Shown: positions 237 to 12,796 of the stretch, in pieces
Layout: every line of letters begins with the position of its first letter
How positions within the stretch are numbered: the stretch's first letter is position 1
DNA from: Bacteroidia bacterium
Lineage (GTDB): Bacteria > Bacteroidota > Bacteroidia > AKYH767-A > OLB10
Direction: 5' to 3'
DNA: 13,057 nt
Assembly (NCBI GenBank): GCA_025450095.1
Contig: JANWID010000171.1
Location: forward strand, 1 to 13,057
The notes under the pieces: generated by a model
What the model saw: only the letters and a program-made list of their open reading frames with translations
Databases searched by the model: none
Told to the model about the DNA's origin: nothing
Program-made: the position numbers and the translations under genes

Positions 237-252
237 TGGCATTAATGATGCA
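237..252 (+). promoter_or_regulatory. predicted sigma-54 (-24/-12) promoter for yqgE-like gene 1
   Basis: The sequence is TGGCAT-TAATG-ATGCA, with GG at 238-239 and GC at 250-251. That 12-bp offset is the one sigma-54 (RpoN) requires (consensus TGGCAC-N5-TTGCA/T). The predicted transcription start is near 263, about 26 nt before the ATG at 289. The second yqgE paralogue has nearly the same sequence upstream (5218-5233), which supports a functional site. No enhancer-binding protein gene lies in the window. Confidence 0.55.
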
Positions 253-288
253 AGTATATCTTGTATTAATTAATCATTTTTTAACGCT

Positions 289-864
289 ATGTTACATTCA
301 CATTACCAGTTAAATCAACAGCCCGAAATCAGTCAGGGAACCTTGCTGGTTTCAACACCTGTAAATTGTATGGCAGATCGTTCCAGGCTTCTCGTACTGG
401 TGATCCGCCATGATGTTTTATCAGGCACTACCGGGCTCATCTTAAATAAAGTGATCGATACCGAGCTGATATTTGGTGATACCGGGCTACAAAACAAATC
501 ATTCGATTTTTACTATGGCGGACCAGTTGAAACTAATTCCGTTTCATTTATGGTTGGATTCCCTTCTATGCGAAATGGTTTACAGGATTCCATCTACTGG
601 ATAAATGATTTCAATGACCTGGTAACCCTTCTGAATATGGTAAATACGAAAGACATCTCTATCCAGGCTTACAGGGGATGTATGAAGTGGGATCCGGGAC
701 AGTTGAAAGACGAAATAGAGAAAAAACAATGGTGGACTACCAACCATTTTAGTCTGGATGAACTAATGGTAAATGAAAATAAATGCTGGGAATACTACGC
801 ACGTCGTGATGGGGGTTATTTTTCACCACTTGTGGGTGCTGAAATACCCATAATTTATAATTGA
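289..864 (+). CDS. YqgE/AlgH-family protein, paralogue 1
   Basis: A 191-residue protein of the YqgE/AlgH (DUF179, UPF0301) family; E. coli YqgE is 187 residues. Family marks in order are GTLLVSTPV (17-25), GTTGLILN (46-53), YYGGPV (75-80), YRGCMKWDPGQL (128-139) and a WW pair (148-149). The molecular function of the family is unresolved; AlgH was named for an effect on alginate production in Pseudomonas. No signal peptide or membrane segment is visible, so it is probably cytoplasmic. It aligns end to end with the paralogue at 5279, including a C-terminal motif (GGYFSPLVGAEIPIIYN) that canonical YqgE lacks, so this looks like a lineage-specific branch. The ATG is chosen because the family domain begins at residue 17 and a sigma-54-type promoter lies just upstream. 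It converges on the CHAD gene with only 21 bp between stop codons. Confidence 0.88.
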   Translation: MLHSHYQLNQQPEISQGTLLVSTPVNCMADRSRLLVLVIRHDVLSGTTGLILNKVIDTELIFGDTGLQNKSFDFYYGGPVETNSVSFMVGFPSMRNGLQDSIYWINDFNDLVTLLNMVNTKDISIQAYRGCMKWDPGQLKDEIEKKQWWTTNHFSLDELMVNENKCWEYYARRDGGYFSPLVGAEIPIIYN

Positions 865-885
865 TGAACAACTGTTTGGTTGCTA

Positions 886-1737
886 TTAATTAAATACATG
901 ATTAACTCTTATCAGCTGTTTAAGTTCTTTTAGTTTTTTCTTCTGACGATTGGAAATGCTTTTCCGGAAATCATTATTCCTTGCATTATTTTTCTTAAGA
1001 TATTCCTTTATGTCCACGCAGTCGTGCCACTGACCAATTAAATGTTGAGTTCTATCCAGGCATTTAACATTCAGGCGTAATTTGCTGACAATTTTTGGTG
1101 GAAGAATATCATGGATATATATTAAATCTTTCAAATATTTTCTTGCCTTATGAAGTTTACTTGTTTTGTTTCGCATTACAGGCATAATATCCCCGTTGAT
1201 TCCGGATATGATCATCCAACATCTTTCTGTTACAAATTGATCCGGGAGCGGTGCAAGGTAACCGGTGATCATTTTTTGAAAACTCAGGAGTTGTTTGGTA
1301 TACAAATCCGAATAATTCTTCAACTTATCTGCAAGTAGCTTTCTTTGTCTTTTGCTTTTTTTAAATAAGGTTGTCCCGGGATTGTCAAGCTTCTTCAATA
1401 ATTCTATTATGATATCCATGCTTCTGACTCCGGCTGCATCTCTGTTTAAGGGTTTTAACATCTCGAAAATAACAGGCACGGCACCCGGTTCTCCGGGAAA
1501 TTTTTTAAATAACAGTGTGAGTGCCCTGATTTTTTTTATGCTTATGCGAAGCCGGTGCAACTCACGGGCATCACCTTTTATTTTGAATTTCTTAATGCCT
1601 CTGCGAGCCGTTTGTAATACAGGAATTAAATAACTAGTCAACTTAGGTTTTGATATCATTCTATAAGTTGCATCCTTGATAAAATAAATAGATGATAAAG
1701 TTGTGGAATTTATTGCCTGATGTGTGTAATCCCGCAT
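886..1737 (-). CDS. CHAD-domain protein, likely polyphosphate-binding
   Basis: A 283-residue, strongly basic alpha-helical protein. The CHAD domain (conserved histidine alpha-helical domain) is recognised from LHRLRISIKKIRAL (about 60-73, H61 and R64), GVRSMDI (103-109), KLHKARKYLKDLIY (194-207, H196) and IGQWHDC (234-240, H238). In characterised CHAD proteins these histidines and the surrounding Arg/Lys bind inorganic polyphosphate. No CYTH/triphosphatase domain is fused, so this is a stand-alone CHAD protein of roughly normal length. The first ATG (1737) is used, but an in-frame ATG at 1659 (residue 27) would still keep the whole domain and cannot be excluded. A small palindrome (1746-1764) lies just upstream of the start. 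It is divergent from the membrane-protein gene at 1888. Confidence 0.85.
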   Translation of the reverse strand: MRDYTHQAINSTTLSSIYFIKDATYRMISKPKLTSYLIPVLQTARRGIKKFKIKGDARELHRLRISIKKIRALTLLFKKFPGEPGAVPVIFEMLKPLNRDAAGVRSMDIIIELLKKLDNPGTTLFKKSKRQRKLLADKLKNYSDLYTKQLLSFQKMITGYLAPLPDQFVTERCWMIISGINGDIMPVMRNKTSKLHKARKYLKDLIYIHDILPPKIVSKLRLNVKCLDRTQHLIGQWHDCVDIKEYLKKNNARNNDFRKSISNRQKKKLKELKQLIRVNHVFN

Positions 1738-1745
1738 CCCATTTT

Positions 1746-1764
1746 GTAGTATTTTAAAAACTAC
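1746..1764. repeat. small palindrome upstream of the CHAD gene
   Basis: GTAGT and ACTAC arms flank an A/T-rich centre (ATTTTAAAA), ending 9 bp before the CHAD start codon. It could be an operator or a leader hairpin. The short arms and A/T-rich setting make chance plausible. Confidence 0.25.
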
Positions 1765-1836
1765 TATTTATTAGCGTTCCTGAAATTCTCTGAAATATCC
1801 TGTAAATCCGCATACTATACAACCAAGATCGATTAA

Positions 1837-1849
1837 CCCGGATTCCGGG
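1837..1849. repeat. CCCGG-ATT-CCGGG inverted repeat in a divergent intergenic region
   Basis: A perfect 5-bp-arm inverted repeat of unusually high GC in an A/T-rich intergenic region. It lies between the divergent CHAD gene (starts 1737) and membrane-protein gene (starts 1888), which suits a shared operator. No regulator can be named. Confidence 0.3.
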
Positions 1850-1887
1850 GGTACATATTTTGTTATACTAAAAGCAAACCAAATGTC

Positions 1888-2379
1888 ATGCATAACTATC
1901 AAAGTAAAACCATTCAGAATACAGCAACCCACTCAAGAAATCCTAATTATGCTATTTGCATACCGGCAGCTCTTATGGGAGGGGCTCTTCTGATTACATA
2001 TTTTTTAATTGTTTCACTAATAGGATATGAAGATCAAACCGGGCTTCGTTTTCTGAATTTTGTTTTGTTGATTCCCGTTATAATTTATGCACTATCAACT
2101 TATGTAAATACTGTGCATAAAAAGTCTTACATGGAAGCTTTCCGTGTATCCGTACTATCATTTATTGGTTCCTATGCAATCCTTGCCCTATTCATGTTCA
2201 TCTACCTGATGGTGCTTAACCCGGATTTTATGACTACTCTTCAGACGCAACTACCCATGTTAAAGCTGAATGCTTTTGGTGTGGTCGCTTTACTGATGGG
2301 GGAAGGCTGCATTGGAGCAGTTGTATTGACATATATTGCAATGCAACACTTTAAAACCAAAATCAGAAAATTGGTTTAA
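1888..2379 (+). CDS. four-helix membrane protein, DUF4199-like
   Basis: A 163-residue integral membrane protein with four predicted transmembrane segments at about 22-44, 53-73, 87-110 and 128-150. A polar N-terminal tail of about 20 residues precedes them and a basic tail (KTKIRKLV) follows. The layout, size and the short polar stretch (VNTVHKKSYMEAFRVS) between helices 2 and 3 resemble the DUF4199 family, common in Bacteroidota and of unknown function; that assignment is from overall appearance. No catalytic motif is visible. It stands alone: divergent from the CHAD gene and convergent with the histidine kinase, separated from the latter by a 97-bp inverted-repeat element that may terminate both. 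Confidence 0.75.
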   Translation: MHNYQSKTIQNTATHSRNPNYAICIPAALMGGALLITYFLIVSLIGYEDQTGLRFLNFVLLIPVIIYALSTYVNTVHKKSYMEAFRVSVLSFIGSYAILALFMFIYLMVLNPDFMTTLQTQLPMLKLNAFGVVALLMGEGCIGAVVLTYIAMQHFKTKIRKLV

Positions 2380-2382
2380 TTA

Positions 2383-2479
2383 GATGTAACGAATGTACGA
2401 ATCGGCTGCGCCGTACGAATCTACGAATACTGGATTCGTAAATTCGTAGATTCGTATTCATTCGTATATTTGTTACATC
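2383..2479. repeat. 97-bp imperfect inverted repeat, TACGAAT family, at a convergent junction
   Basis: Outer arms 2383-2402 and 2460-2479 match over 20 bp with two differences, both G-U pairs in plus-strand RNA. Inner arms 2414-2428 and 2442-2456 are a perfect 15-bp match. Between the outer and inner parts of the left arm sits a small hairpin, CGGC-TGC-GCCG (2403-2413). The left half is one unit of the 43-bp repeat in the tandem array at 12869, and the core word (T)ACGAAT recurs throughout. It fills almost the whole gap between convergent stop codons, so it may act as a bidirectional terminator; a mobile palindrome is the alternative. Confidence 0.8.
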
Positions 2480-2485
2480 ACTTTT

Positions 2486-4261
2486 TTAAGTCCTTACGTG
2501 TTGATGAACCGGTAACTCCACTGTAAACACGGCTCCTTCACCCGGCACTCCACTGGCAGTGATGGTTCCGTCGTGGTTGTTTACAATTCTTTTGCAGATT
2601 GCAAGCCCGATTCCGGTTCCTTCATAAGCGTGTTTCCCGTGCAGTCGTTGAAAAATTACGAAAATCTTTTCAGCATATTTTTGATCGAATCCTATTCCAT
2701 TATCAAGGATCATAATGCGAACCCGCTGATTATAACGGTTAGGAATATTGGATTGACCATTATCGGTGTGAATATAGTTTTCCGACCGGATCTCAATCCT
2801 TGGTGTAACTTCACTACGACTGAATTTTAATGCATTTCCAACCAGGTTAAAAAACAGTTGGTACATTTGCGACGGAACGGCATCAATAACCGGGAGAACG
2901 GAACAGGATATAACAGCCTGTTTCCGGAGAATTTTAATTTCCAGATCGCTTAATACATCCTGCAGTACTTTATTCAGGTCCGTGGAAGTAAAATCGTTAT
3001 TAGCGCGTACCAGCCTGGAAAAATTCAACAGGTCAGCAATCAGGCCTGACATCCGGTTCGAAGCCGAAAGCATTTTATCCATATATATTCTTGTCTCATC
3101 TGTCAACAGGTGATTAGCCTTTGTGCTGAGACGGTCGCCGAAGGCCTGTATTTTGCGAAGAGGCTCCTGGAGATCGTGTGATGCGACAAATGCAAACTGC
3201 TCCAGTTCATTATTGGATCTTTTCAACTCGGATATGTAGCGTTGTAAAGCCACTTCATATTCTTTTTCTTTCGAAATATCATCCAGTGTCAGCATAATAC
3301 CATCATCAAGTTTTCCTGCAACGATCCGATACCATTTTCCCTTATCCTTACCTGGGTAAAAACGCTCCGCTTTAAAAACCTTATCATCCATTACGACTTT
3401 AATATATTCCTCCATCAAACCAGATTCGAGGCTGTCAGGGAATATAGACTGCAAAGTTTTACCAACCGGACCGGGATTTCCTGCGGCAGATAATTCTGCT
3501 CCTACCTTATTAGAGTGAAGACAAACAAAATCGCTTATGCGTCCGTCGGGTTGACGTATTGCACTGAAAGATATAATGGCGCTTTGGGATGCTTCAAGTA
3601 CAGCATCGAGAAGATATTTAACTTTTCGTTTGCTTCGAATTTCCAACAGGATATAAAATAACGAAGTCACCATTATAATCACGACAGTAGCAGAAAATAT
3701 TGTGCTTACTATTTTCGTATTCATTACTGAATCGGAACCTTCCAGGCTGCGGTACACTTTCCACCGCTCTTCTTCCCGCTTCATCTTTCCGGCGATTATT
3801 TTAATAGAATCCATCAGCATGGATGACTGACCGATCAGTTCCTGGTATCCGAATTTGAAATTTCCGCCTTTCTGAAGGTGAATAATAAATTCCTGGCTTT
3901 TTACTTTCAAGTCAATCAGCCGTGCAATGGTATCCATATAATATTCCTGGGTGGAATTCCCCTGGATCAGCTTGTGCAACTCTTCCACTTTACCGGGAAC
4001 CTGCTCTCTTGCAATTTTATAAGGCTCAAGATAGATTTCCTTGTCAGTAAGCGCATAGCCCCGCGTTCCGGATTCCATGTCTTTAAGCATTCCCAGCAAT
4101 TCTTCAGTATTGTCCATCAGGTCCAGCGTATGCACCAGCCTGCTGTTACTCTCGTTCGTCCGGTTGAAACTGGTTGTGTACAGATAAATCAATAGAATGA
4201 TGATGATAAAAGCGATTCCGAATACAAGAAAAATTCGTTTTAAAATATTGGTACTTTCCAT
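2486..4261 (-). CDS. CHASE3 sensor histidine kinase
   Basis: A membrane-bound sensor kinase of 591 residues from the ATG at 4261; a GTG at 4279 would add six residues. In order: transmembrane helix about 10-28; extracytoplasmic CHASE3 domain about 35-180 with the typical MESGTRGYALT motif (62-72); second helix about 185-207; a degenerate PAS-like region about 215-330; a short coiled coil; a HisKA dimerisation domain with phospho-acceptor H362 in FAFVASHDLQEPLRK; and a HATPase domain with N box (N472, N476), G1 box DNGIG (520-524), an F-box region near 532-541 and G2 box GTGIGLA (548-554). All catalytic residues are present. No receiver domain is fused and no response regulator or DNA-binding gene is adjacent, so it is an orphan kinase of unknown signal. 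A terminator separates it from the lipoprotein gene upstream. Confidence 0.93.
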   Translation of the reverse strand: MESTNILKRIFLVFGIAFIIIILLIYLYTTSFNRTNESNSRLVHTLDLMDNTEELLGMLKDMESGTRGYALTDKEIYLEPYKIAREQVPGKVEELHKLIQGNSTQEYYMDTIARLIDLKVKSQEFIIHLQKGGNFKFGYQELIGQSSMLMDSIKIIAGKMKREEERWKVYRSLEGSDSVMNTKIVSTIFSATVVIIMVTSLFYILLEIRSKRKVKYLLDAVLEASQSAIISFSAIRQPDGRISDFVCLHSNKVGAELSAAGNPGPVGKTLQSIFPDSLESGLMEEYIKVVMDDKVFKAERFYPGKDKGKWYRIVAGKLDDGIMLTLDDISKEKEYEVALQRYISELKRSNNELEQFAFVASHDLQEPLRKIQAFGDRLSTKANHLLTDETRIYMDKMLSASNRMSGLIADLLNFSRLVRANNDFTSTDLNKVLQDVLSDLEIKILRKQAVISCSVLPVIDAVPSQMYQLFFNLVGNALKFSRSEVTPRIEIRSENYIHTDNGQSNIPNRYNQRVRIMILDNGIGFDQKYAEKIFVIFQRLHGKHAYEGTGIGLAICKRIVNNHDGTITASGVPGEGAVFTVELPVHQHVRT

Positions 4262-4280
4262 TCCAATCGTATTATTCACA

Positions 4281-4322
4281 AATAAATAAAAAAGCCAGGG
4301 AATTATAAAACTTCCTGGCTTT
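4281..4322 (-). terminator. intrinsic terminator of the coiled-coil lipoprotein gene
   Basis: A 9-bp stem (AAAGCCAGG at 4291-4299 pairing with CCTGGCTTT at 4314-4322) has an A/T-rich loop. On the minus strand it is followed directly by a T-rich run. It starts about 20 nt after the lipoprotein stop codon and ends before the histidine kinase start, so the two genes are probably separate units. Confidence 0.8.
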
Positions 4323-4341
4323 ATTTAATTGAAGAAAGAGC

Positions 4342-4986
4342 TTATTTATCTTTTTCTTTAGCTACATTTTCTTCTGTTTTAGCGACCGGTCTGTTTAAGG
4401 CCTTTATGCCGGTATATTTCATTTTTTGTTCGGCTAGTATTATTTCATCGCCGGCTTTTACATCTTTTTCGACCTGGTCTTTGCGATCATCAAGTCTGTC
4501 CCACAAATTTTCAACGCGGGTCCACTCTTCTTTTGTTAAATTATCCTTACGTGCTTCCACGTTATTAACGAAATGCTTGTACACTTCCACAACATTACTA
4601 CTTGTAACATTGGTCAGCTCATGATTAATTCCCTCAGGAAGCAATGAGCTCATTAATATTTCATCCGCTTTTTGTTGCTCACGGGCTTTTAGCTCTGCAG
4701 TATGATTTTCGTGGAACGATTCCCAGTTTTGTTTGAGTGTTTGATACTCGGCACGCATCTGGTCATTCCAGCTGTCCATTTTAGCTTCAGCTTTGTTTTG
4801 TTTTTCATTGTATTCCTGCTCGATTTCCGCCCATTGCCGGTCTAAATATTTTTCAGTATTGTTTTGATGTTCTATTACATATTCCCGGTAATCGTTATAA
4901 GCCTGGTCACTTTTCTGTTCGCGTGTACAGGAAATAACTGCAAAGGCGGTTAGAATAAGAAGGAACGCTTTAATTTGATTTTTCAT
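4342..4986 (-). CDS. coiled-coil lipoprotein of unknown function
   Basis: A 214-residue predicted lipoprotein. The N-terminus MKNQIKAFLLILTAFAVISC is a clear lipoprotein signal with lipobox VISC and cleavage before C20. The mature part is highly charged and helical. Residues about 25-110 are rich in Glu, Gln, Lys and Trp with heptad-like spacing, and a second helical block covers about 130-185. The lysine-rich tail ends AKEKDK. No catalytic motif is visible. Its likely place is the envelope, anchored by lipid to the inner or outer membrane and possibly acting as a spacer or scaffold; that is inference. I do not firmly recognise the family. It has its own terminator and a long divergent upstream region shared with the second yqgE gene. 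Confidence 0.82.
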   Translation of the reverse strand: MKNQIKAFLLILTAFAVISCTREQKSDQAYNDYREYVIEHQNNTEKYLDRQWAEIEQEYNEKQNKAEAKMDSWNDQMRAEYQTLKQNWESFHENHTAELKAREQQKADEILMSSLLPEGINHELTNVTSSNVVEVYKHFVNNVEARKDNLTKEEWTRVENLWDRLDDRKDQVEKDVKAGDEIILAEQKMKYTGIKALNRPVAKTEENVAKEKDK

Positions 4987-5041
4987 GTTATAAAGAATTA
5001 AATAGTTTGAGGTTTATTTTAAATAGTGCCACTGAAAAAAA

Positions 5042-5057
5042 TGAAAACATCATGCCA
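5042..5057 (-). promoter_or_regulatory. possible degenerate -24/-12 element upstream of the coiled-coil lipoprotein
   Basis: The minus strand reads TGGCAT-GATGT-TTTCA. The -24 half is good but TC replaces GC at -12, exactly as in the element upstream of the other lipoprotein gene (102-117). A start site about 45 nt before the ATG at 4986 would follow. Confidence 0.22.
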
Positions 5058-5217
5058 AAGCATTTACCCATACTATTCTTTTCAGGAATTATTTTTTGTG
5101 TCTCTTTCCTCAGTTTGTGGAATAAAATGCCTGTTGTCCGAAAATTAATTCCTGTAAAACTCCTGGTAGAATGTTTAGCAGGTTCCGTACGTCAGTATTT
5201 TAAACATCGTACCTGTT

Positions 5218-5233
5218 TGGCATTAATGCTGCT
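5218..5233 (+). promoter_or_regulatory. predicted sigma-54 (-24/-12) promoter for yqgE-like gene 2 operon
   Basis: The sequence is TGGCAT-TAATG-CTGCT, with GG at 5219-5220 and GC at 5231-5232, the sigma-54 spacing. The eleven bases TGGCATTAATG are identical to those upstream of yqgE-like gene 1. The predicted start is near 5244, giving a leader of about 35 nt. Confidence 0.55.
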
Positions 5234-5278
5234 GCAACAACTTAAATATTTCATTCCCTGACGTCAAAACCTGAAAAT

Positions 5279-5848
5279 ATGCTAAATCGTCAAAAACAAA
5301 CCGATACCTGTACTTCGCTCCAGACGGGAAGTCTGTTAATTTCAACACCGGTAAACTTAAAGTACAACACATCCCGTCTGTTGATACTGGTTACACATCA
5401 TAGTGAAGCAGGCACAACAGGTATCATTCTGAACAGGGACCTACCAGGGAACAAAATCCTGAAATATATTAATGATGGCGACCCGGTTGAACTGAAATAC
5501 GGAGGTCCTCATTATCTGCAAAGCGAATCCTATATTGTAATCTACCCCTCCATAAAAAATGGTTGGAAGGATTCTGTTTATTGGAGCGCTGATGTAAAAG
5601 ATCTTAACACCATATTACATTTTATGTCGGACTATAATATCCGTTACGGTGCTTACTATGGTTGTTTTAAATGGATGCCGGAAGAACTTGAGAATGATCT
5701 TGCAACCGGGATGTGGTGGCTTACCAATAATTACCCGGTGAATACGATTTTTGAATCTGGGAATTCGATCTGGAATAATTTTGCAAAACAATACGGAGGA
5801 TATTATTCTGGTCTTGCAGGTAATGATTTGCCAATATGTTATAACTAA
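5279..5848 (+). CDS. YqgE/AlgH-family protein, paralogue 2
   Basis: A 189-residue YqgE/AlgH (DUF179) protein and a clear paralogue of the protein at 289. Matching motifs are GSLLISTPV (17-25, the same position as in paralogue 1), GTTGIILN (45-52), KYGGP (73-77), YYGCFKWMPEEL (126-137), a WW pair (146-147) and the tail GGYYSGLAGNDLPICYN. The usual PGQL after the tryptophan is PEEL here, so this copy has drifted further from canonical YqgE. No signal peptide or membrane segment is visible. It is first in a two-gene unit: the next ATG is 14 bp after the stop and has a strong Shine-Dalgarno. Its sigma-54-like promoter is shared with paralogue 1, suggesting co-regulation. Biochemical function is unknown. 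Confidence 0.87.
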   Translation: MLNRQKQTDTCTSLQTGSLLISTPVNLKYNTSRLLILVTHHSEAGTTGIILNRDLPGNKILKYINDGDPVELKYGGPHYLQSESYIVIYPSIKNGWKDSVYWSADVKDLNTILHFMSDYNIRYGAYYGCFKWMPEELENDLATGMWWLTNNYPVNTIFESGNSIWNNFAKQYGGYYSGLAGNDLPICYN

Positions 5849-5852: not shown

Positions 5853-5862
5853 ATATTATATC

Positions 5863-6159
5863 ATGTCAAAAGAAAAAGAAAAAATAACCACCGAAACAAA
5901 AGGAACACAGGTGGCACCTAAAATAACTCCTGCAGAAAAAGAAGCGGCAAAGAAAGCTACTCCAGAGAAGGAACCTGTCGGAGCACCTGCTCCACGGGAA
6001 TTGCTTGAAAAAGGTAAGCCGGCTGAAGAGGGAGGTCCGGTTAAAGCTGATACAAATATGGAATCCGAATCGGATTTAAACCGTCAGAACAGTGAAGATA
6101 GCAGCCCGGATCCGGCTCAAAACAGGCAGGATAATAATTTATATGGTAAGGGGCTGTGA
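5863..6159 (+). CDS. small disordered, charged protein, yqgE-linked
   Basis: A 98-residue protein with no hydrophobic core. It is Lys/Glu/Pro/Ala-rich in the first half (KEAAKKATPEKEPVGAPAP) and Asp/Ser/Asn/Gln-rich in the second (NRQNSEDSSPDPAQNRQDNN). No cysteine, tryptophan, signal peptide or membrane segment is present. It is almost certainly intrinsically disordered and I recognise no family. Expression is supported by a strong Shine-Dalgarno and by lying 14 bp after yqgE-like gene 2, in the same predicted sigma-54 transcript. Such proteins often serve as protectants or as flexible partners of the neighbouring product, but nothing in the sequence decides this. It converges on mlaD, with a GGCAGT-type inverted repeat between them. 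Confidence 0.7.
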   Translation: MSKEKEKITTETKGTQVAPKITPAEKEAAKKATPEKEPVGAPAPRELLEKGKPAEEGGPVKADTNMESESDLNRQNSEDSSPDPAQNRQDNNLYGKGL

Positions 6160-6193
6160 AAGTACTTAGTTCTCTTTTAGCTTTTTCGTAAAA

Positions 6194-6326
6194 GTCGGCA
6201 GCTGGCAGTTAGCAGTCGGCAGTTAGCAGTCGGCAGTCAAAAAATATTCATTAAATTAACTGACAAAAAAATCTGCTTGCTACTTATGACTATTTGCCTA
6301 CTGCCTACTGATTACTGCCTGCTGCA
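6194..6326. repeat. imperfect inverted repeat, GGCAGT family, at a convergent junction
   Basis: The left arm 6194-6238 is made of repeated GGCAGT and TAGCAGT words. The right arm (about 6280-6326) holds the same words inverted (CTACTGCC, ATTACTGCC). Over the outer 30-odd bases most positions pair, separated by an A/T-rich loop. It fills the gap between the convergent disordered-protein gene and mlaD, ending 2 bp before the mlaD stop codon. A copy of the same family lies at 10467-10560. It may terminate transcription from both sides. Confidence 0.7.
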
Positions 6327-6328
6327 AA

Positions 6329-7057
6329 CTACTTTTCATTCTTTTTCTTTTGCGGATCAGTATCTTTCTTATCCGTCGATTCTTCTTCCTTTTTCATTTT
6401 ACGGAAAGCGCCGCGAAGCAGGAAACTTTTCTTTGCTGCGGTAAGATTTTCCTCGAGGCTCTTGCTGGAAGTTTCAAGGTTTTGCATGGTGTTAGCGAAA
6501 TTATCTGCCATGGTAGTATCCACGAGCATTCTTGAAAGCACTCCATTCCCGTTGTTTACCTTGAATAGAATCATTGCCAGTTCAGAGCTGATAACTTCAG
6601 CATTCTCTACTGTATTCTGCAGGTTATCCAGAATTGCATCCATTTCAATCGGAGCCTGGGAACTGATGTAAGCGTTTTCTTTAATCGGAGGAAAATCACC
6701 GGATCCGGATGTTATGGTCACTACTTTGTCGCCCATAAGACCTTCCGTTCCTATTGTAGTTCTGGAATTCGTCCGGATGAAAGGCAGCTTTTCATTTTCA
6801 ATCATCAGTTGCACCATCACAGTTGTATCACTCAATAGTACGATATCACTGACTGTTCCTATAGTGATGCCGTTGAAACGCACATTATTTCCTACCTGCA
6901 ATCCACCCACATTGGTGAAAATAGTTTTAACGGTTGTGGTAGCTCCGAAGAGGTTTTGCTGCCTTCCAACAAAAAAGATTAACACAACCAGGAGGAGACA
7001 TCCGAAAGCTACAAGGATACCTACCCGCAAAGCGTATTTTGAACTATGGTCGCTCAT
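6329..7057 (-). CDS. mlaD: MlaD-like MCE-domain protein
   Basis: A 242-residue substrate-binding subunit of an MlaFED-type ABC system for phospholipid movement between the membranes. It has one N-terminal transmembrane anchor (about 9-30), a single MCE domain (about 40-117) with GGLQVGNNVRFNGITIGTV and GLMGDKVVTI, then a helical periplasmic region and a lysine-rich tail (about 220-242). In known MlaD proteins the MCE domains form a hexameric ring with a central lipid channel. It is last in mlaE-mlaF-mlaD: its ATG follows the mlaF stop with one base between, indicating translational coupling. No mlaC or mlaB gene adjoins, which is usual in Bacteroidota. A start at 7057 puts the anchor at the expected distance. 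Confidence 0.92.
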   Translation of the reverse strand: MSDHSSKYALRVGILVAFGCLLLVVLIFFVGRQQNLFGATTTVKTIFTNVGGLQVGNNVRFNGITIGTVSDIVLLSDTTVMVQLMIENEKLPFIRTNSRTTIGTEGLMGDKVVTITSGSGDFPPIKENAYISSQAPIEMDAILDNLQNTVENAEVISSELAMILFKVNNGNGVLSRMLVDTTMADNFANTMQNLETSSKSLEENLTAAKKSFLLRGAFRKMKKEEESTDKKDTDPQKKKNEK

Positions 7058-7058
7058 T

Positions 7059-7811
7059 TTATTCGTTATAAAAAAAAGTTTTAATAAACGGATCGTCCGA
7101 TTCCATCAAATCATCATACGTCCCTTCTTTGAATATTTTACCATCTTTTAGCATCAGGATCCGGTCTGAATAATCATTTGCGAATTTCATATCATGCGTA
7201 ATGATTATGGAGCTGGTATTGAATTTTTCTCTTACTTTCATAACAAGTTCGCCAATTTCCGCAGAGGTAATCGGATCAAGACCGGTAGTGGGTTCGTCAT
7301 ATAGGATAACTTCCGGTTCCAGGATCAGGGTGCGGGCAAGTCCAATTCGTTTTTTCATTCCACCGGATAATTCGGATGGCATTTTATCAATCGATTGTTC
7401 AAGACCAACATCAGTGAGTGCATTCATAATCCGATCATCAATTTCAGATTTTTTCAGCTTTCGCTGATGACGTACTAATGGGAATTCAAGATTTTCACGA
7501 ACCGTCATGCTGTCATATAAAGCTGCGCCCTGGAAAAGAAAACCGATTTTTTTGCGAACCTGGTTTAGTTTTTTGGAGCTGGAATGGGTGATATCGGTGC
7601 CCAATGCATTAATGCTACCCTGGTCAGGAGTTATCAGGTTGACAATACACTTTATCAGCACTGATTTCCCTGTACCCGACTTGCCAAGGACAACCAGGTT
7701 TTCTTTTTTGTGTAATGTGAGATCAACTCCATTCAATACTTTATTTCGTCCGAAAGATTTACTCAGTCCGTTAACCGAAATAACTGTTTCTCCATTTGTT
7801 AATTCCTTCAT
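7059..7811 (-). CDS. mlaF: MlaF-like ABC transporter ATPase
   Basis: A 250-residue cytoplasmic ATPase that powers the MlaFED lipid transporter. Complete ABC motifs are Walker A GKSGTGKS (43-50), Q-loop Q94 in FLFQGAALYD, signature LSGGM (148-152), Walker B VILYDEP (168-174) followed by TTGLDP, and H-loop H206. FQGAALYDSMTV and LSGGMKKRIGLAR are typical of the MlaF branch rather than of other ABC importers. It lies 3 bp after mlaE and 1 bp before mlaD, so it is co-transcribed and probably translationally coupled to both. The length is normal and no residues are missing. Confidence 0.95.
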   Translation of the reverse strand: MKELTNGETVISVNGLSKSFGRNKVLNGVDLTLHKKENLVVLGKSGTGKSVLIKCIVNLITPDQGSINALGTDITHSSSKKLNQVRKKIGFLFQGAALYDSMTVRENLEFPLVRHQRKLKKSEIDDRIMNALTDVGLEQSIDKMPSELSGGMKKRIGLARTLILEPEVILYDEPTTGLDPITSAEIGELVMKVREKFNTSSIIITHDMKFANDYSDRILMLKDGKIFKEGTYDDLMESDDPFIKTFFYNE

Positions 7812-7814
7812 AAC

Positions 7815-8624
7815 TCAGACAATTAAATTAGTCAACTGTACTGCTATCACATCAATAATAAAAACCATCAATGATGCTGATATAACCGCTTCATTAGATG
7901 CTGTTCCCACACTTTCGGTGCCGCGACTTGCATTGAATCCTTTATAACAACCAATTACACCGATGAAAAATCCAAACACCACCGATTTAATTGTAGCCGG
8001 AATCACATCGGAAAATCTTACCGAACTCATTGCCTGGTTAACGAATAAAATCAGGGAAACATCTCCATCAATATTCGCAGCCAGGAATGAACCGATTAAT
8101 CCGGTGAAGTCAGCGCACAACACCAGTATGGGCAGCATGATGGATGATGCAAGCACACGGGTTACTACAAGGTATTTATATGGATTAGAACCGGAAACTT
8201 CCATTGCTTCAATTTGCTCTGAAACTTTCATGGATCCAAGTTCAGCTCCGATACCGGAGCCTACTTTTCCGGCGCATATCAAAGCCGTTATAACCGGTCC
8301 GATCTCACGGATAATGGAAATGGAAACCATTTGCGGCAACCAGGCCTCTGCGCCAAAATCTTCAAGCGTTGGCCTTGATTGCAGGGTGAGTACCATTCCC
8401 ATTATAAAACCAGTTGTTATCACCAACCCGAATGAACGGTTACCGATAAAAAAGGTTTGTCGCATAAATTCAGCTCCCTCAAAAGGGAAATTGAAAACCT
8501 CTTTGAAAAATCTCGAGACGAAAATTGTGAATTCTCCCAGATCACTAATAGTTCCGGATATTCTGTTTGTGATCCAGCTTCGCGAATTTTCAAGATCTGA
8601 AATAGAATAACCCTTTGGAATCAT
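7815..8624 (-). CDS. mlaE: MlaE-like permease
   Basis: A 269-residue inner-membrane permease of the MlaE (DUF140) family that carries the MlaD ring and binds MlaF. Family hallmarks are REIGPVITALICAGKVGSGIGAE in the middle (about 106-128) followed by GSMKVSEQIEAMEV, plus several hydrophobic helices on either side ending QLTNLIV. An N-terminal amphipathic part precedes the first membrane segment, as in the family. I prefer the ATG at 8624; a TTG two codons upstream (8630) is the only other nearby start. It is first in mlaE-mlaF-mlaD and divergent from the YtxH operon. No convincing promoter was found upstream. Confidence 0.93.
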   Translation of the reverse strand: MIPKGYSISDLENSRSWITNRISGTISDLGEFTIFVSRFFKEVFNFPFEGAEFMRQTFFIGNRSFGLVITTGFIMGMVLTLQSRPTLEDFGAEAWLPQMVSISIIREIGPVITALICAGKVGSGIGAELGSMKVSEQIEAMEVSGSNPYKYLVVTRVLASSIMLPILVLCADFTGLIGSFLAANIDGDVSLILFVNQAMSSVRFSDVIPATIKSVVFGFFIGVIGCYKGFNASRGTESVGTASNEAVISASLMVFIIDVIAVQLTNLIV

Positions 8625-8730
8625 TTTCAACTGTTGTATGCATCGCCATTATTAAAAAAATCATGCCGTGCAGAAGAAAAGGAGGCACTCAGACAAAAGA
8701 GGGATTAATCCTGCTGTAACTTAAATTCCC

Positions 8731-8740
8731 CCACATGTGG
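8731..8740. promoter_or_regulatory. CCACATGTGG palindrome, possible regulator site
   Basis: A perfect 10-bp palindrome in a GC-richer island of the divergent region. Enhancer-binding proteins for sigma-54 bind palindromes upstream of the promoter, so it is a candidate activator site. It could equally act on mlaE. I saw no copy near the other three predicted sigma-54 promoters, which weakens the case. Confidence 0.3.
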
Positions 8741-8910
8741 AAAAATATGCATAGTATGTTATGAATATTTAAAGAATAAACTTAAAATATTGATGTACGG
8801 GTGTAAAATTTAAATGTAACTAAAAATATTTAGAGTAAAAACTACAACAACTGCGGAAAATAAATACACTGAATTACGAAATCATAATTACAAAAAACAA
8901 TTTTCATTAT

Positions 8911-8926
8911 TGGATTGAAATTTGCA
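8911..8926 (+). promoter_or_regulatory. predicted sigma-54 (-24/-12) promoter for the YtxH operon
   Basis: The sequence is TGGATT-GAAAT-TTGCA, with GG at 8912-8913 and GC at 8924-8925 at exact 12-bp offset, plus a full TTGCA in the -12 half. The predicted start is near 8937, giving a leader of about 36 nt before the ATG at 8973. Confidence 0.55.
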
Positions 8927-8972
8927 ATTCCTGAAATAACTCATTATAAATTCACTTAAAAAATTTAAAATT

Positions 8973-9257
8973 ATGTCAGAACAATCAAAAATCGTTACTG
9001 CTCTTCTGGTAGGAGCAGCCGCAGGAGCCGTTTTAGGATTGTTGTTTGCCCCGGACAAAGGCAGCAACATACGGAATAAGATAATGCAATTCGGAAAAGA
9101 GACCGGGGATGAACTAGGTTCATATGTAGATGAAGGAATCAGCTATGCGAAACGTAAGTACGATGAAGTCAAATCAAAAACAAGCGGATTGGCCGACGAA
9201 GTTCAAAACAAAGCAGATGATCTGAGTCGCAGAACTGAAAAACCGAGAGTGAGCTAA
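8973..9257 (+). CDS. YtxH-like small membrane protein
   Basis: A 94-residue protein with one glycine/alanine-rich transmembrane helix near the N-terminus (about 7-25, ending LLFAPDKG) followed by a charged helical tail (RNKIMQF... to ...DDLSRRTEK). This is the YtxH domain pattern, known from Bacillus general-stress proteins and widespread in Bacteroidota. Function is not established; it probably sits in the inner membrane with the amphipathic tail in the cytoplasm. It is first in a four-gene plus-strand unit, 57 bp before the holin-X-like gene, and preceded by a sigma-54-type promoter, so stress- or growth-phase-controlled expression is likely by inference. Confidence 0.85.
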   Translation: MSEQSKIVTALLVGAAAGAVLGLLFAPDKGSNIRNKIMQFGKETGDELGSYVDEGISYAKRKYDEVKSKTSGLADEVQNKADDLSRRTEKPRVS

Positions 9258-9314
9258 TTCATTTGGGAATCAGAACAAGATAAGAATCAATTTTAGATCT
9301 TAAAAAAAAGCAAC

Positions 9315-9665
9315 ATGGAAAACAGCAGTGGCATCAACCTTCATAAATTAACTGATAATATCAGGGAATATATTGAAACACGAATCGATATCATTAAGCT
9401 TGAAACCGCCGAGTCCGGTGCATCTGCTGTTTCTTCCATGATGTCATGGTTAATTATCCTGCTCATTGGATTTCTGGTTGTACTTATGTTAACTGTTGGC
9501 ATGGCAATCGGCATCGGCTATCTCATGGAAAATTTTGCAGTAGGATTCTTCATTGTCACGGCGTTTTATCTTGTGGTAGGTTTGCTGATGTACAACTATC
9601 GGGAAAAATGGCTCCGAAAGCCATTTATCAACGTTATTGTTAAAAATATATATCATCATGAATAA
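9315..9665 (+). CDS. holin-X/YqjE-like membrane protein
   Basis: A 116-residue protein with an N-terminal amphipathic helix (LTDNIREYIETRIDIIKLETAE, about 12-33 in two parts) and two strong transmembrane segments (about 44-67 and 75-95), then a basic tail. This is the pattern of the 'phage holin family' / putative holin-X (YqjE-like) proteins. Despite the name these are usually chromosomal housekeeping or stress proteins, often next to YtxH genes. No phage genes lie nearby, so lysis is not implied. Its stop codon overlaps the next gene's start by 8 bp, indicating translational coupling. Confidence 0.8.
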   Translation: MENSSGINLHKLTDNIREYIETRIDIIKLETAESGASAVSSMMSWLIILLIGFLVVLMLTVGMAIGIGYLMENFAVGFFIVTAFYLVVGLLMYNYREKWLRKPFINVIVKNIYHHE

Positions 9666-10104
9666 GTATAAATCCATCGATGAATTGCGTTCAGCAAAAG
9701 GAAGGCTTTATTTCCGGAAAGAAGAACTGGAAGCTGAGATAAAAAATAATTTTGCATCACTGAAACATTCACTGACTCCTTCAGGAATTATTGGAAATTT
9801 CATGACAGCAAAAAATTCTCATGCTGCTGAAAACACCCAGGGTCCGGGTATGCTGAATAACGTTGCTGCAACTGCAATGGATATCCTGGTCAATGATATT
9901 TTTCTGCGGCGTAAATCATATTTTAAACGCTTTTTCATGTCGTACCTTATACGTATTGTCGGACCTACTCTGATGCATACTGCTGGTCCATTGATTAATA
10001 AGCTGGCCAAAAAAACAGGAATCATGAATTATTTCGGAGTCAAGCATTCCAATAACGGGCACCCGGTCCATGACGAGCCAGTTTACACTCATGGAGTAGG
10101 TTAA
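9658..10104 (+). CDS. small protein of unknown function in the YtxH operon
   Basis: A 148-residue protein. The ATG at 9658 is preferred over an in-frame TTG at 9637, because it overlaps the upstream stop in the usual coupled way. A charged N-terminal helix (about 5-35) is followed by a flexible middle, a hydrophobic/amphipathic stretch (about 83-112, FMSYLIRIVGPTLMHTAGPLI) that may associate with the membrane, and a His/Gly-rich tail (KHSNNGHPVHDEP). No family or catalytic motif is recognised. Being third behind YtxH and holin-X genes, it probably works at the inner membrane with them; that is inference from context. Confidence 0.75.
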   Translation: MNKYKSIDELRSAKGRLYFRKEELEAEIKNNFASLKHSLTPSGIIGNFMTAKNSHAAENTQGPGMLNNVAATAMDILVNDIFLRRKSYFKRFFMSYLIRIVGPTLMHTAGPLINKLAKKTGIMNYFGVKHSNNGHPVHDEPVYTHGVG

Positions 10105-10121
10105 CTTTAAGAACTTTGAAT

Positions 10122-10454
10122 ATGTCTAGAAAACCAGTTGAAATAACGCCGATGAAAACGTTGTCGGAATGTGTTAATAGTCTTGTTGAACAAGGTTATG
10201 GTGAAAGTTTTCGTGTAAAAAATAAAATGCTTTTTGGAGATCAGAACAAGAAATCCTATCCACCCGACAAAGTGCATATTGCAAATTTTTACCGTTTTGA
10301 AGGTGATTCCGATCCGGGAGATAATGCAATCCTGTACGCTATTGAAACCGATGACGGCACATATGGCGTGCTGGTTGATGCTTATGGATCTGCAGCTGAT
10401 GCCGGTGTATCGGAATTTATACGGCAGGTTAGTGATATCAATAAGATGATGTGA
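10122..10454 (+). CDS. conserved small soluble protein, last in the YtxH operon
   Basis: A 110-residue soluble protein, from the ATG at 10122 rather than the in-frame TTG at 10116. It belongs to a small Bacteroidota family recognised by a 'YRFEGDSDPGDNAILYAIETDDGTYGVLVDAYG' signature (about residues 56-88, with fixed FEG, SDPGD and GVLVDAYG elements). From memory, members are sometimes labelled phosphoribosylpyrophosphate synthetase. The size and lack of a PRPP-binding loop make that label almost certainly wrong. No signal peptide or membrane segment is seen. It lies 17 bp after the previous gene and converges on the outer-membrane protein gene across a GGCAGT-type repeat. Function unknown. 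Confidence 0.78.
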   Translation: MSRKPVEITPMKTLSECVNSLVEQGYGESFRVKNKMLFGDQNKKSYPPDKVHIANFYRFEGDSDPGDNAILYAIETDDGTYGVLVDAYGSAADAGVSEFIRQVSDINKMM

Positions 10455-10466
10455 TTTTTACTACTA

Positions 10467-10560
10467 GTTGGCAGCTGGCAGTAAGCAGCCTGCAGTAGGC
10501 AGCATGTATACTATTTATCAACTTTGCCCTTTGTCTGCTTACTGGCGACTTCGGGCTGCC
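10467..10560. repeat. imperfect inverted repeat, GGCAGT family, at a convergent junction
   Basis: CAGTAAGCAG (10479-10488) pairs perfectly with CTGCTTACTG (10535-10544), and GGCAG (10470-10474) pairs with CTGCC (10556-10560). A nested hairpin GCCT-N5-AGGC lies at 10488-10500. The words match those of the element at 6194-6326. It lies between the stop codons of the YtxH operon and the outer-membrane protein gene and may terminate both. Confidence 0.7.
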
Positions 10561-10567
10561 GGCTTTT

Positions 10568-12415
10568 CTATTGAAACGATGCCACATCAGGTTTCGTAAT
10601 TTCAAAATCATGAAACCTGAAATCTTTCAGCTTAACAGGATCGAAACGCAGGTCGGCACTGGAACCGGGAAGAATCGGGTACCAGGCAATTGTTATCTGG
10701 AAAGTATCCATTACCAGCAGTTCATTTTTAATCAGCAGTCCGAATCCATAACTTTGATAAATTTTCGAATCCAGGATTGAACTGTTATAATCGCCCATCA
10801 TTCCGATTCCGGCAAGCAAAATAGGAGCAAACCTGAATCCGAGAATTTCGTACGGGGTATAAAATACAGCCTGTGTCGATATGGATAAGCGACTTGTTCC
10901 ATAAGGCAAATTGCTTTTGTAACCGGGAAGTCCGTCATCTGCATTCATGTATATTCTTTCATTGAATTTCCGGTCGATGCCATAGTCCAGGTTGAGCGAT
11001 GTAAAATTCCGGATCCGCCATCTATGCGCCTGGTATAAAGGAGTGAGATAAATTAAAGAAGAACTAACTAATCCCTGGGCCAGATGATATTTATTTGCAT
11101 AACTACTGTATCCAAGGCTAAGATAAAAATAACCCAGGTCAGGAAAGTATGTTCCAATTGCACCTTCAGCACCAAAATAATATCGCACTTGTTGTGGTGT
11201 ATTTTCAAAACCCGCGGTAAGAGTCACTTTTCGTCCATCAGGAACATCTTCGGCTTCACCGAACTTAAAGATGTACCGGTCCTTGACATACTTCCGGGAT
11301 GAAAGACTGATACTTCCCAGGACCAGATCTGTGGGCGCAAAATAATAATCGATAACAGCATCATTTGTATTATCAAAATCATATCGCATACGCGCATACC
11401 GTAAGGCAGTAACCAACCGGGTACTGCGTTCTTCGTCGGTATTCCCTTTCAGGAGTTTCCAGCTAATCCCTGACCATCCATCAATGACGAATGACCGGTA
11501 TTGATAATCAAAATAAACAGTGTCATCCTGAAGTCGGGTGGAATCGGAAGCGGACCTGGAATATAAATCGAGCCCTCCGGCTATTCGCGTCAGCGGGCTG
11601 TAAAACGGCCTGTTTACACTCAGGCCCCGGACGTTATTCACATCGGATGTGCCGAAGTATACGACCGGGGAAATATATGTACTTCCCAGTGTGGGAATAC
11701 GATAAATTGCATCTACAATCAGTGTGGAAGCTTCCTTAAGTTTGTCGGTAAACCGGATATCAACCTCATGCCCTAATCCTGCGATATTTGTTTCTTCTAC
11801 TCTGTAACTGGCCTTACTGGTGGATGCGGTAATAAATGGACGAAGCGTCCAGTAATCCTGGGTAAGAAGTACTATATCGACGGTATCTTTGGTTCCGGGA
11901 ATTTCCTTTACGGTGATTCTCGCATCGCGGATAAAGCCGGTGCTTCGCAATAATCGTTCTGATTCGGCAATTTTTAATGGATCGAGATATTCATTTTCAT
12001 CAAAAAGCAGCCGGTCCCTAATGGTCGATCGTCGGGTGAGCGGGTGGGTCGAATTGCCTACTTTCTGAATTACGCTATGTGGTACCCTCGTGGAATCATT
12101 CATGCTTGTACCAAATGGTTCCAGGGATCGGATATAAATTTTCCGGATCACTTTACCGGAATAATGTTCAATCGGAAAGGTTGCAGCCTTTTTTTTCCGT
12201 GGTACCTTACTAACGGTAACCGGTGGATTAAAAATACTTTTATAAACTACGTAAAGTAATTTATGGCTCTTTGCATAATGATATAATTTTTTGTAAAACT
12301 CCGCAGTGTCGGAAACTGTTTCGAAATCATCGAGGGGTTCAGAAATAATTTGCCCCTTAGCGGGAAGAGCTGTAATAATCAAAATCAGCACCAATATAAT
12401 CTGCCGGCTTTTCAT
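10568..12415 (-). CDS. POTRA/beta-barrel outer-membrane protein (BamA/TamA-like)
   Basis: A 615-residue exported protein. A signal peptide (MKSRQIILVLILIITALPAKGQ) is followed by a polar linker with a basic patch (PRKKK, 72-76), a POTRA-like module (about 87-186: GKVIRKIYIRSLEPFG ... ESERLLRSTGFIRDARITVKE ... DTVDIVLLTQDYW), then a long region of alternating aromatic and polar residues typical of a beta-barrel, opening with NIAGLGHEVDIRF (210-222). It has one POTRA-like module rather than the five of BamA and is shorter, so it is an Omp85/TamA-type relative, not BamA itself. The last residue is Gln, preceded by Phe, so the classic C-terminal aromatic is offset by one. It may insert or export envelope proteins or lipids; the substrate is unknown. 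It is a single gene, convergent with the YtxH operon. Confidence 0.82.
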   Translation of the reverse strand: MKSRQIILVLILIITALPAKGQIISEPLDDFETVSDTAEFYKKLYHYAKSHKLLYVVYKSIFNPPVTVSKVPRKKKAATFPIEHYSGKVIRKIYIRSLEPFGTSMNDSTRVPHSVIQKVGNSTHPLTRRSTIRDRLLFDENEYLDPLKIAESERLLRSTGFIRDARITVKEIPGTKDTVDIVLLTQDYWTLRPFITASTSKASYRVEETNIAGLGHEVDIRFTDKLKEASTLIVDAIYRIPTLGSTYISPVVYFGTSDVNNVRGLSVNRPFYSPLTRIAGGLDLYSRSASDSTRLQDDTVYFDYQYRSFVIDGWSGISWKLLKGNTDEERSTRLVTALRYARMRYDFDNTNDAVIDYYFAPTDLVLGSISLSSRKYVKDRYIFKFGEAEDVPDGRKVTLTAGFENTPQQVRYYFGAEGAIGTYFPDLGYFYLSLGYSSYANKYHLAQGLVSSSLIYLTPLYQAHRWRIRNFTSLNLDYGIDRKFNERIYMNADDGLPGYKSNLPYGTSRLSISTQAVFYTPYEILGFRFAPILLAGIGMMGDYNSSILDSKIYQSYGFGLLIKNELLVMDTFQITIAWYPILPGSSADLRFDPVKLKDFRFHDFEITKPDVASFQ

Positions 12416-12450
12416 GTATTCCTGGCTTGATCTTGCTGCTCATTATGCTT

Positions 12451-12488
12451 AAAGACCCCGGATAACTTCATTCGTATCCAGGGTCTTT
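12451..12488 (-). terminator. strong hairpin, possible terminator or leader structure
   Basis: AAAGACCC-C-GGAT pairs with ATCC-A-GGGTCTTT around a 12-nt loop, a stem of 12 pairs with one mismatch. It lies between the DUF5670 gene and the outer-membrane protein gene on the minus strand, about 36 bp before the latter's ATG. Only a short T run follows, so it may be a weak terminator of the upstream gene or part of the downstream leader. Confidence 0.5.
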
Positions 12489-12493
12489 AGCAG

Positions 12494-12511
12494 GCATCCT
12501 GGTCAGGATGC
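12494..12511. repeat. short perfect hairpin next to the 12451 hairpin
   Basis: GCATCCTG-GT-CAGGATGC is a perfect inverted repeat, realistically a 7-bp stem with a 4-nt loop, 5 bp from the larger hairpin. The two probably act as one structured unit between the DUF5670 gene and the outer-membrane protein gene. Confidence 0.5.
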
Positions 12512-12597
12512 AATTCCATCAAATATTTCAGTTGATTCGTTAATCAATTTCGACATATTACATAATATTAAATTGTGTAGCGGCATAATGCTATGTG

Positions 12598-12750
12598 TCA
12601 AACTTTTTCACCCCGGATCAACCTTAGTAAAATAGATATTACAGCTATTACCAGCAGAATATGAAAGATGCCGCCGATACTGTAAGCGAAGAAACCAATA
12701 GCCCAGGCTATAACGAGCACCACTGCTATCAGATAAAGTAAATTTCCCAT
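12598..12750 (-). CDS. DUF5670 / lmo0937-family small membrane protein
   Basis: A 50-residue protein beginning MGNLLYLIAVVLVIAWAIGF and ending LLRLIRGEKV. Two hydrophobic helices (about 4-22 and 28-42) are joined by a short turn (YSIGG) and followed by a basic end (RLIRG). This is the typical pattern of the lmo0937/DUF5670 family of tiny inner-membrane proteins, often seen near stress genes and of unknown function. The ATG at 12750 is the only plausible start and the frame is open to TGA at 12600-12598. Two candidate promoters lie upstream, a sigma-54-type (12780-12796) and a Bacteroidota housekeeping-type (12815-12845). Two hairpins follow before the outer-membrane protein gene. Confidence 0.85.
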   Translation of the reverse strand: MGNLLYLIAVVLVIAWAIGFFAYSIGGIFHILLVIAVISILLRLIRGEKV

Positions 12751-12779
12751 GGTTTAAATAATTTTGTTTAATACCTGTT

Positions 12780-12796
12780 ATGCTATAATCATTCCA
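12780..12796 (-). promoter_or_regulatory. predicted sigma-54 (-24/-12) promoter for the DUF5670 gene
   Basis: The minus strand reads TGGAAT-GATTA-TAGCA, with GG at 12795-12794 and GC at 12783-12782, the 12-bp offset of sigma-54 promoters. The -12 half is imperfect (TAGC for TTGC). The predicted start is near 12770, about 20 nt before the ATG. Confidence 0.42.

Follow-up and report, generated by a model that had tools for sequence, protein, structure and literature searches.

A predicted small RpoN-dependent regulon of envelope-related genes with a relaxed −12 element in Bacteroidota

Here, we describe sigma-54-type promoter sites in a stretch of 13,057 nucleotides (nt) from an uncultured Bacteroidia bacterium (contig JANWID010000171.1, assembly GCA_025450095.1), in the following referred to as the window, together with their counterparts in related genomes. 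With a probability of roughly 0.6, the sequences suggest a small envelope-stress regulon that depends on RpoN and has a relaxed −12 element, which would be run by a histidine kinase and an NtrC-type activator and would comprise mlaEFD, the ytxH operon, lip214 with the adjacent kinase gene, the DUF5670 gene and, probably, the DUF4199 gene and the two paralogues yqgE1 and yqgE2. The original prediction had placed yqgE1, yqgE2, the ytxH operon and the DUF5670 gene in one sigma-54 regulon on the basis of four sites. What stands is the common promoter class before ytxH and DUF5670, the sites of which are kept in the relative G262 and, in the case of ytxH, also in G434; what has changed is that the set is wider (mlaE, lip214-kinase and probably DUF4199), that the −12 GC is not a general feature of the sites and that yqgE is the least certain part of the set.

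All four sites are present where they had been predicted, each with 12 base pairs (bp) from GG to GC:

237-251, plus strand: sigma-54-type site TGGCATTAATGATGC before yqgE1 (part 237..252, TGGCATTAATGATGCA), exact GG-N10-GC
5218-5232, plus strand: sigma-54-type site TGGCATTAATGCTGC before yqgE2 (part 5218..5233, TGGCATTAATGCTGCT), exact GG-N10-GC
8911-8925, plus strand: sigma-54-type site TGGATTGAAATTTGC before the ytxH operon (part 8911..8926, TGGATTGAAATTTGCA), exact GG-N10-GC
12796-12782, minus strand: sigma-54-type site TGGAATGATTATAGC before DUF5670 (part 12781..12796, TGGAATGATTATAGCA), exact GG-N10-GC

The pattern TGG-N10-GC occurs 5-120 nt upstream of four of the ten promoter-bearing genes of the window, compared with a mean of 0.47 in 3000 first-order Markov simulations (P 0.0003). 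The coordinates are compatible with the predicted leader lengths of about 20-36 nt, provided that transcription starts approximately 12 nt past the GC. Likewise, the common word upstream of both yqgE genes was recovered as a 15-mer identical at 14 of 15 positions, the maximum in 60 simulations being 13.

The upstream regions of 16 genes were scored with a window-free matrix of 19 sites from relatives, among them the G262 and G434 orthologues of mlaE, lip214, ytxH and DUF5670; the best position 25-115 nt upstream was compared with 4000 random sequences, and P values are uncorrected. For yqgE1, yqgE2, ytxH and DUF5670 alike, the best upstream position was the predicted site, which reached P 0.001 before DUF5670. 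The barrel gene is indeed without a site (score −2.4, P 0.93). The same had been claimed for mlaE, which holds for the strict GC form only: matrices from other genomes place the best site of the window there. The sites beyond the original four are the following:

8653..8668 (first base 8668), minus strand: site CGGCATGATTTTTTTA before mlaE, the strongest of the window, score 17.9, reached by none of 4000 random sequences
5042..5057, minus strand: site TGGCATGATGTTTTCA before lip214 (alternative TGGCACTATTTAAAAT at 5016-5031), score 13.4, P 0.001 with the window-free matrix
1849..1864, plus strand: weak candidate site GGGTACATATTTTGTT before the DUF4199 gene, score 6.1, P 0.11 alone

Among the remaining nine genes, orf98 gave P 0.005 with a site inside yqgE2, and all others gave P of at least 0.15. 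A 6-site matrix from relatives, two of its sites being from G434, had its top window matches before mlaE and DUF5670; matrices smaller than the 19-site set perform worse. The GG and the A at position 5 do not vary among the relatives' 19 sites, in part owing to selection, and position 12 is always T, while position 14 is C in nine, G in seven and T in three, and position 15 is A in four, C in four, G in three and T in eight. The GG at −24 is found in 19 of 19 training sites and 4 of 4 window sites, a count that is not independent, as selection was partly for GG. The GC at −12, 12 bp from the GG, is present in the four window sites and before DUF5670 of G262, and it is absent from most orthologous promoters.

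In all genome-wide tests, G262, G434 and other relatives stand in for the window's own genome. The MlaE protein of the window is at most 65% identical to any of the 80 loci kept from genome_contigs, and the window lineage is therefore far from the species compared. Both G262 and G434 contain the cluster of barrel, 110-amino-acid (aa), 148-aa, holin-like and ytxH genes, the divergently oriented mlaEFD, and lip214 with the kinase gene after it, on one contig in G434 and split over two (C43, C18) in G262. The lip214 promoters of both contain TGGCACGATTATTTGA, the motif being constant while the flanks diverge. The sites in G262 and G434, respectively, read TGGTACTGTTTTTGTC and TGGTATCGTTTTTGTC before ytxH, CGGCACGATTTTTCTT and CGGCATGATTTTGCTT before mlaE, and TGGCATTGAAATTGAA and TGGCATTGATATTGGA before the DUF4199 homologues. 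Moreover, the DUF5670 gene of G262 is found at the homologous place, and its promoter TGGTATGGTTTTAGCC has the exact GG-N10-GC at the homologous position. Orthologous sites lie at similar positions with GG and, twelve bases on, G, T or C, usually not GC. Sites before DUF4199, DUF2383 and receiver-activator genes are seen in G262 and G434 alike.

Open reading frames (ORFs) were called by a simple longest-ORF rule, and gene starts are therefore approximate. The window contains the following genes:

289..864, plus strand: yqgE1, DUF179/AlgH-like, 191 aa (PF02622, 63.9 bits)
1888..2379, plus strand: DUF4199-like membrane protein, 163 aa (PF13858 below cut-off, 30.2 of 32.3 bits; 37% identical to L286:18915-19415)
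2486..4279, minus strand: CHASE3-HisKA-HATPase histidine kinase (Pfam) downstream of lip214, 51% identical to the same-place kinase in G262 and G434
4342..4986, minus strand: lip214, putative lipoprotein, 44-45% identical to the G262 and G434 homologues, no Pfam family above cut-off
5279..5848, plus strand: yqgE2, DUF179 paralogue, 189 aa (PF02622, 48.5 bits; 38% identical to yqgE1)
5863..6159, plus strand: small low-complexity protein, the ORF after yqgE2, no Pfam match
6329..8630, minus strand: mlaE-mlaF-mlaD (Pfam MlaE, ABC_tran, MlaD)
8973..10454, plus strand: ytxH operon encoding YtxH, a holin-like 116-aa protein (PF07332), a 148-aa protein (ATG 9658) and a 110-aa protein (ATG 10122); Pfam; same order in G262 and G434
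10568..12415, minus strand: POTRA/barrel-like surface protein (POTRA slightly under cut-off, 19.6 of 21.3 bits), no site
12598..12750, minus strand: DUF5670 peptide, 50 aa (PF18919, 51.6 bits), 78% identical to that of G262

The low-complexity protein gene at 5863..6159 is probably on the yqgE2 transcript; by eye, a 95-aa ORF resembling it stands after mlaD in G434. A second DUF5670-like gene is located beside DUF4199 and DUF2383 in G262 (L286:18549-18695, 62.5% identical to that of the window) and, by eye, in G434 (L366:4570-4773). Tandem repeats of the GTAACGAATGTACGAATAGGCTACGCCTTACGAATCTACGAAT type occupy the window end (12870-13057), with a similar copy near 2400 (2386-2475), and short GGCAGTTAGCAGTCGGCAGT-type repeats lie between operons at 6190-6240 and 10465-10505.

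The sites were further ranked in G262 (2.21 of approximately 4.3 Mb scanned) with a held-out matrix comprising six window sites, mlaE and lip214 included, and five sites of the G003 group, and no G262 or G434 sites. Among 845 promoter-bearing ORFs, the orthologues of the six window genes ranked 1 (mlaE), 4 (lip214), 49 (DUF4199), 101 (yqgE), 143 (DUF5670) and 168 (ytxH), corresponding to a one-sided Mann-Whitney P of 3.5e-5, from which barrel and kinase, both without a site, were excluded. This value is preferred to the P of 1.8e-5 of a 10-gene version, which is biased because the outer-membrane protein, DUF2383 and receiver-activator genes were chosen after the scan had revealed them. An OmpA-family protein and a short-chain dehydrogenase held ranks 2 and 3. 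The relatives-only 6-site matrix was modestly enriched in G262, where 12 upstream matches scored at least 12 bits and 4.0 were expected. Across the G262 family (24 genomes), GGCAYGATTWTTY gave 26 matches compared with 17 for the backwards control; 10 versus 0 were in G262 and G434, and 16 versus 17 in the other genomes. Seven of the ten G262 and G434 matches precede genes for OmpA-like proteins (two), lip214 (two), mlaE (one) and a 118-aa secreted-type protein (two); two of the other three are at the edge of one ORF common to both genomes, and one is inside a 327-aa ORF.

In relatives, a gene for the sigma factor itself is part of the arrangement. In 15 genomes picked from the 80 MlaE loci, rpoN was present without exception, in two copies in G001, G002, G003, G004 and G011 and in one in the other ten. 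In these five two-copy genomes (loci L012, L018, L020, L023 and L040), ytxH, holin-like and 148-aa-type genes adjoin mlaE. Eight genomes (G001, G002, G003, G004, G011, G020, G024 and G027) have an rpoN2-type gene next to the 148-aa-type gene, downstream of it in the ytxH operon. This operon copy is the second one in six of the eight, all but G020 and G027, where only the first 107-123 residues of rpoN2 are within the locus and copies were not counted. Outside the 15 genomes, a ninth case was found in a more distant genome, a Cytophagales metagenome-assembled genome (MAG; L062:7172-9893), in which ytxH, a holin-like and a 136-aa gene adjoin mlaE and an rpoN gene with 34% identity to G003 rpoN2 comes next; its ytxH has TGGCACAGTTTTTT about 60 nt before the start, and the 13-mer GGCAYGATTATTC is absent. 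The RpoN box reads ARRTVVKYRE in G003 rpoN2 and ARRTIAKYRE and ARRTVAKYRE in rpoN of the one-copy genomes G008 and G005, respectively. An rpoN2 query matches 376 of the 395 genomes of the class.

The ytxH upstream regions of G001, G002, G003, G004, G011 and G024 contain the block [ACG]GGCA[CT]GATTATTC, with its GG 53-69 nt upstream of the start in the five genomes measured and about 210 nt in G024. This GG fits a −24 element, and the −12 GC is not kept. GGCAYGATTATTC is present once each in 9 of the 36 genomes of the order, with three matches for the backwards control. Six of the nine are before ytxH (G001, G003, G004, G020, G024 and G027), those of G034 and G044 are elsewhere, and that of G033 is at a contig end, in the same upstream block as in the ytxH promoters. 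Near the ytxH promoter of two relatives we also observed genes that are presumably OsmC-like stress genes (L143:2128-2553 and L149:717-1142). The L001 record, titled Rhizobium sp. MAG, has a Bacteroidota-like mlaE (63%) and is probably mislabelled or a mixed bin.

Moreover, one group of NtrC-type activators (E about 1e-64 to 1e-66) is encoded 10-39 kb away on the contig of ytxH, rpoN2 or lip214 in G001, G002, G003, G004, G020, G027, G262 and G434; in G024 it lies on a different contig. Identity confirmed the group in G001, G002, G003, G004 and G024 (53-56% to G262) and its absence from G008 and G424, with at most four candidates scored per genome; for G015, G426, G020 and G027 the assignment follows from E-values. 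The G262 activator consists of receiver, Sigma54_activat and HTH_8 (Fis-type helix-turn-helix) domains, and its gene follows a receiver-only gene bearing its own site. The activators of G262, G434, G003 and G001 have the loop GSFTGA. The identity of the G262 protein is 80% to its G434 counterpart, 52-54% to the G003 and G001 proteins and 35-38% to three other activators, for which three of six loci were used. Its best match reached E 1.4e-144 or better in 41 of the 395 genomes (52-62% identity, itself apart), and the activator is therefore wider spread than rpoN2. In G229, an rpoN2-like gene (43% to G003 rpoN2) is followed after approximately 0.2 kb by the activator gene (54%, GAFTGA).

The motif positions, the synteny, the domains and the co-location of rpoN2 with the activator are consistent with the following circuit, in which the use of sigma-54, the pairing of activator with sites and of kinase with activator, the signal, phosphotransfer and the role in stress are predicted throughout. 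The CHASE3 histidine kinase, made together with lip214, would sense the state of the envelope and phosphorylate the NtrC-type activator, directly or via receiver-only proteins. The activator, the gene of which lies in this region in relatives, would bind upstream and drive RpoN polymerase at sites of the form TGG(C/T/A)A(Y)...(T/A)TG or TTC before mlaEFD, the ytxH operon, lip214-kinase, DUF5670, DUF4199 and the activator's receiver gene. In some relatives, the RpoN whose gene closes the ytxH operon would probably be the dedicated sigma factor and be under its own promoter. In the simplest reading, a single circuit with RpoN (or RpoN2) would serve to maintain the envelope, its targets being lipid transport (Mla), the membrane-associated YtxH and holin-like proteins, DUF5670 and a lipoprotein.

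A number of results weigh against this regulon. Over the whole window, TGG-N10-GC is not enriched (12 matches compared with a shuffle mean of 15.9, standard deviation 3.8); the word itself is not rare, and what is unusual is its upstream position. The 19-site matrix gives P 0.10 for yqgE1, 0.12 for yqgE2 and only 0.048 for ytxH, its training sites contain the orthologues named above, and the 6-site matrix prefers other positions over the predicted yqgE1 and ytxH sites. Unlike classical sigma-54 promoters, most orthologous sites are without the −12 GC, and G262 and G434 are close relatives and not independent. The refuting check named with the original prediction, run here in the relative G262, went against it: strict GG-N10-GC patterns do not concentrate upstream of genes and amount to 324 per Mb upstream versus 671 per Mb in coding sequence. 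Nor did a matrix restricted to the four window sites show any upstream enrichment. In the ranking, adding barrel (rank 549) and kinase (788) to the six orthologues weakens P to 0.0097, the scoring positions for G262 ytxH and yqgE differ from the sites read by eye, and the window's mlaE and lip214 sites sat in the training set. A strict site is found in 1 of 16 ytxH rows of the first MlaE loci (L064, 249 nt upstream), in 6 of 19 DUF5670 rows, by eye mostly in preceding coding sequence, and in only 2 of 32 loci of canonical yqgE of the class, which makes yqgE the weakest member; by eye, none is apparent before ytxH in further genomes of the G262 family. As other ytxH and canonical yqgE promoters mostly have no strict site, the regulon would be small and lineage-bound. 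Conserved blocks were observed 60-80 nt upstream. Palindromes in the upstream regions did not reach significance, and TGGAA-N4-TTCC, a candidate activator site, was not enriched over other spacers. Both rpoN and the activator are known from relatives, and the Sigma54_activat matches in 13 of 13 genomes say little because 14 of 14 control genomes match as well.

These results leave an appreciable possibility that a sigma-54 regulon of mla, ytxH, lip214 and DUF5670 does not include the two yqgE genes, the common word of which would then be a relic of duplication. The P values of both yqgE sites point in this direction, as does the finding of DUF179 in 0 of 36 genomes in the order of G001 and G003 (a search with the yqgE1 protein likewise yielded 0 of 36), members of which retain the ytxH-rpoN2 operon. 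By comparison, DUF179 is present in 330 of the 395 genomes of the class. However, the yqgE word persists although its flanks are otherwise dissimilar and, by eye, is of the four sites the closest to the classical consensus. Membership of yqgE1 and yqgE2 is hence termed probable, their sequences being the most classical and their comparative support the weakest. For yqgE2, no relative was confirmed in genome_contigs, and none was confirmed for either protein in viral_contigs; yqgE1 has 10 matches in the protein database including itself, six of them at 64-88% on short or unlisted contigs.

It seems unlikely that an ordinary transcription factor uses the GGCAYGATTWTT block as its operator, with a housekeeping or extracytoplasmic function (ECF) sigma factor reading the genes. 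Such an operator would fit the block as found in relatives, where it exceeds a bare −24 element in length and conservation and has no −12 GC, but the block is located promoter-like, about 40-90 nt before starts, the homologous DUF5670 positions of the window and G262 keep the exact GG-N10-GC, and an operon-borne rpoN and a GSFTGA activator are found on the same contigs. Even less probable are chance GG...GC words in AT-rich leaders: the absence of enrichment over the window and upstream in G262 and the two of 32 canonical yqgE loci would agree with chance, whereas the upstream position in the window (P 0.0003), the held-out ranking and the motif kept between diverged flanks, as at lip214 in G262 and G434, argue against it. 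Similarly improbable are housekeeping promoters, which in Bacteroidota have −33 TTG and −7 TAnnTTTG: TTTG is part of several sites, among them GAAATTTG at ytxH of the window, and TAAATTTG and TATATTTG are found at the activator genes of G003 and G001, yet with TTG required 17-22 nt upstream a one-mismatch match was obtained at the barrel gene only, of ten genes, and the yqgE, lip214, mlaE, ytxH and DUF5670 genes showed 2-3 mismatches (no null computed), a poor fit on which this promoter type was rejected.

Returning to the RpoN-dependent regulon, the ytxH-linked sigma-54 gene of relatives and the matching activator further along the contig point to an undescribed envelope-stress control circuit. 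More tentatively, this could be an envelope or general stress response of Bacteroidota with a dedicated sigma-54 paralogue encoded within an operon that it controls, an altered −12 element (TTC or TTGT for TTGC) and a conserved kinase-receiver-activator switch, of which the window would represent a form without the operon rpoN and with recruited YqgE paralogues. Neither RpoS nor SigB is known from Bacteroidota. Their stress control is poorly described, and a sigma-54 circuit that includes a sigma gene and an activator of its own would be a testable candidate; it would explain why strict sigma-54 matrices miss such sites and would provide a functional context for YtxH, DUF5670, DUF4199 and YqgE proteins. 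Literature searches, which mostly did not cover subscription papers, found no paper on this circuit among the titles listed.

In PspF/NtrC-type membrane-stress circuits, an activator and sigma-54 drive small membrane proteins. The circuit proposed here differs by its receiver-bearing activator, the CHASE3 kinase and, in relatives, the sigma-54 gene inside the target operon. Sigma-54 regulons have been described as governing the bacterial exterior, with envelope-related genes among their members (Francke et al. 2011, PMC3162934). As far as its main text goes, the promoter logic of GG and GC, the NtrC-type activators and the envelope-related targets are alike, whereas here the −12 element is relaxed and the targets are mla, YtxH, DUF5670 and DUF4199 genes; 'Bacteroid' has 0 occurrences in that main text. 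A survey with position-specific scoring matrices (PSSM) predicts sigma-54 targets in Bacteroidota, including heat-shock and envelope genes (Carrera-Reyna et al. 2025, PMC12316311), and YtxH has 0 occurrences in its main text. In the passages considered, neither of these two papers mentions the circuit proposed here. A matrix demanding TTGC would presumably miss most of the sites found here. Two RpoN proteins with a possible division of labour are described, in the parts consulted, for Ralstonia (PMC4371752) and Bradyrhizobium (PMC9977809); compared with these dual systems, rpoN2 is here embedded in a YtxH-type operon.

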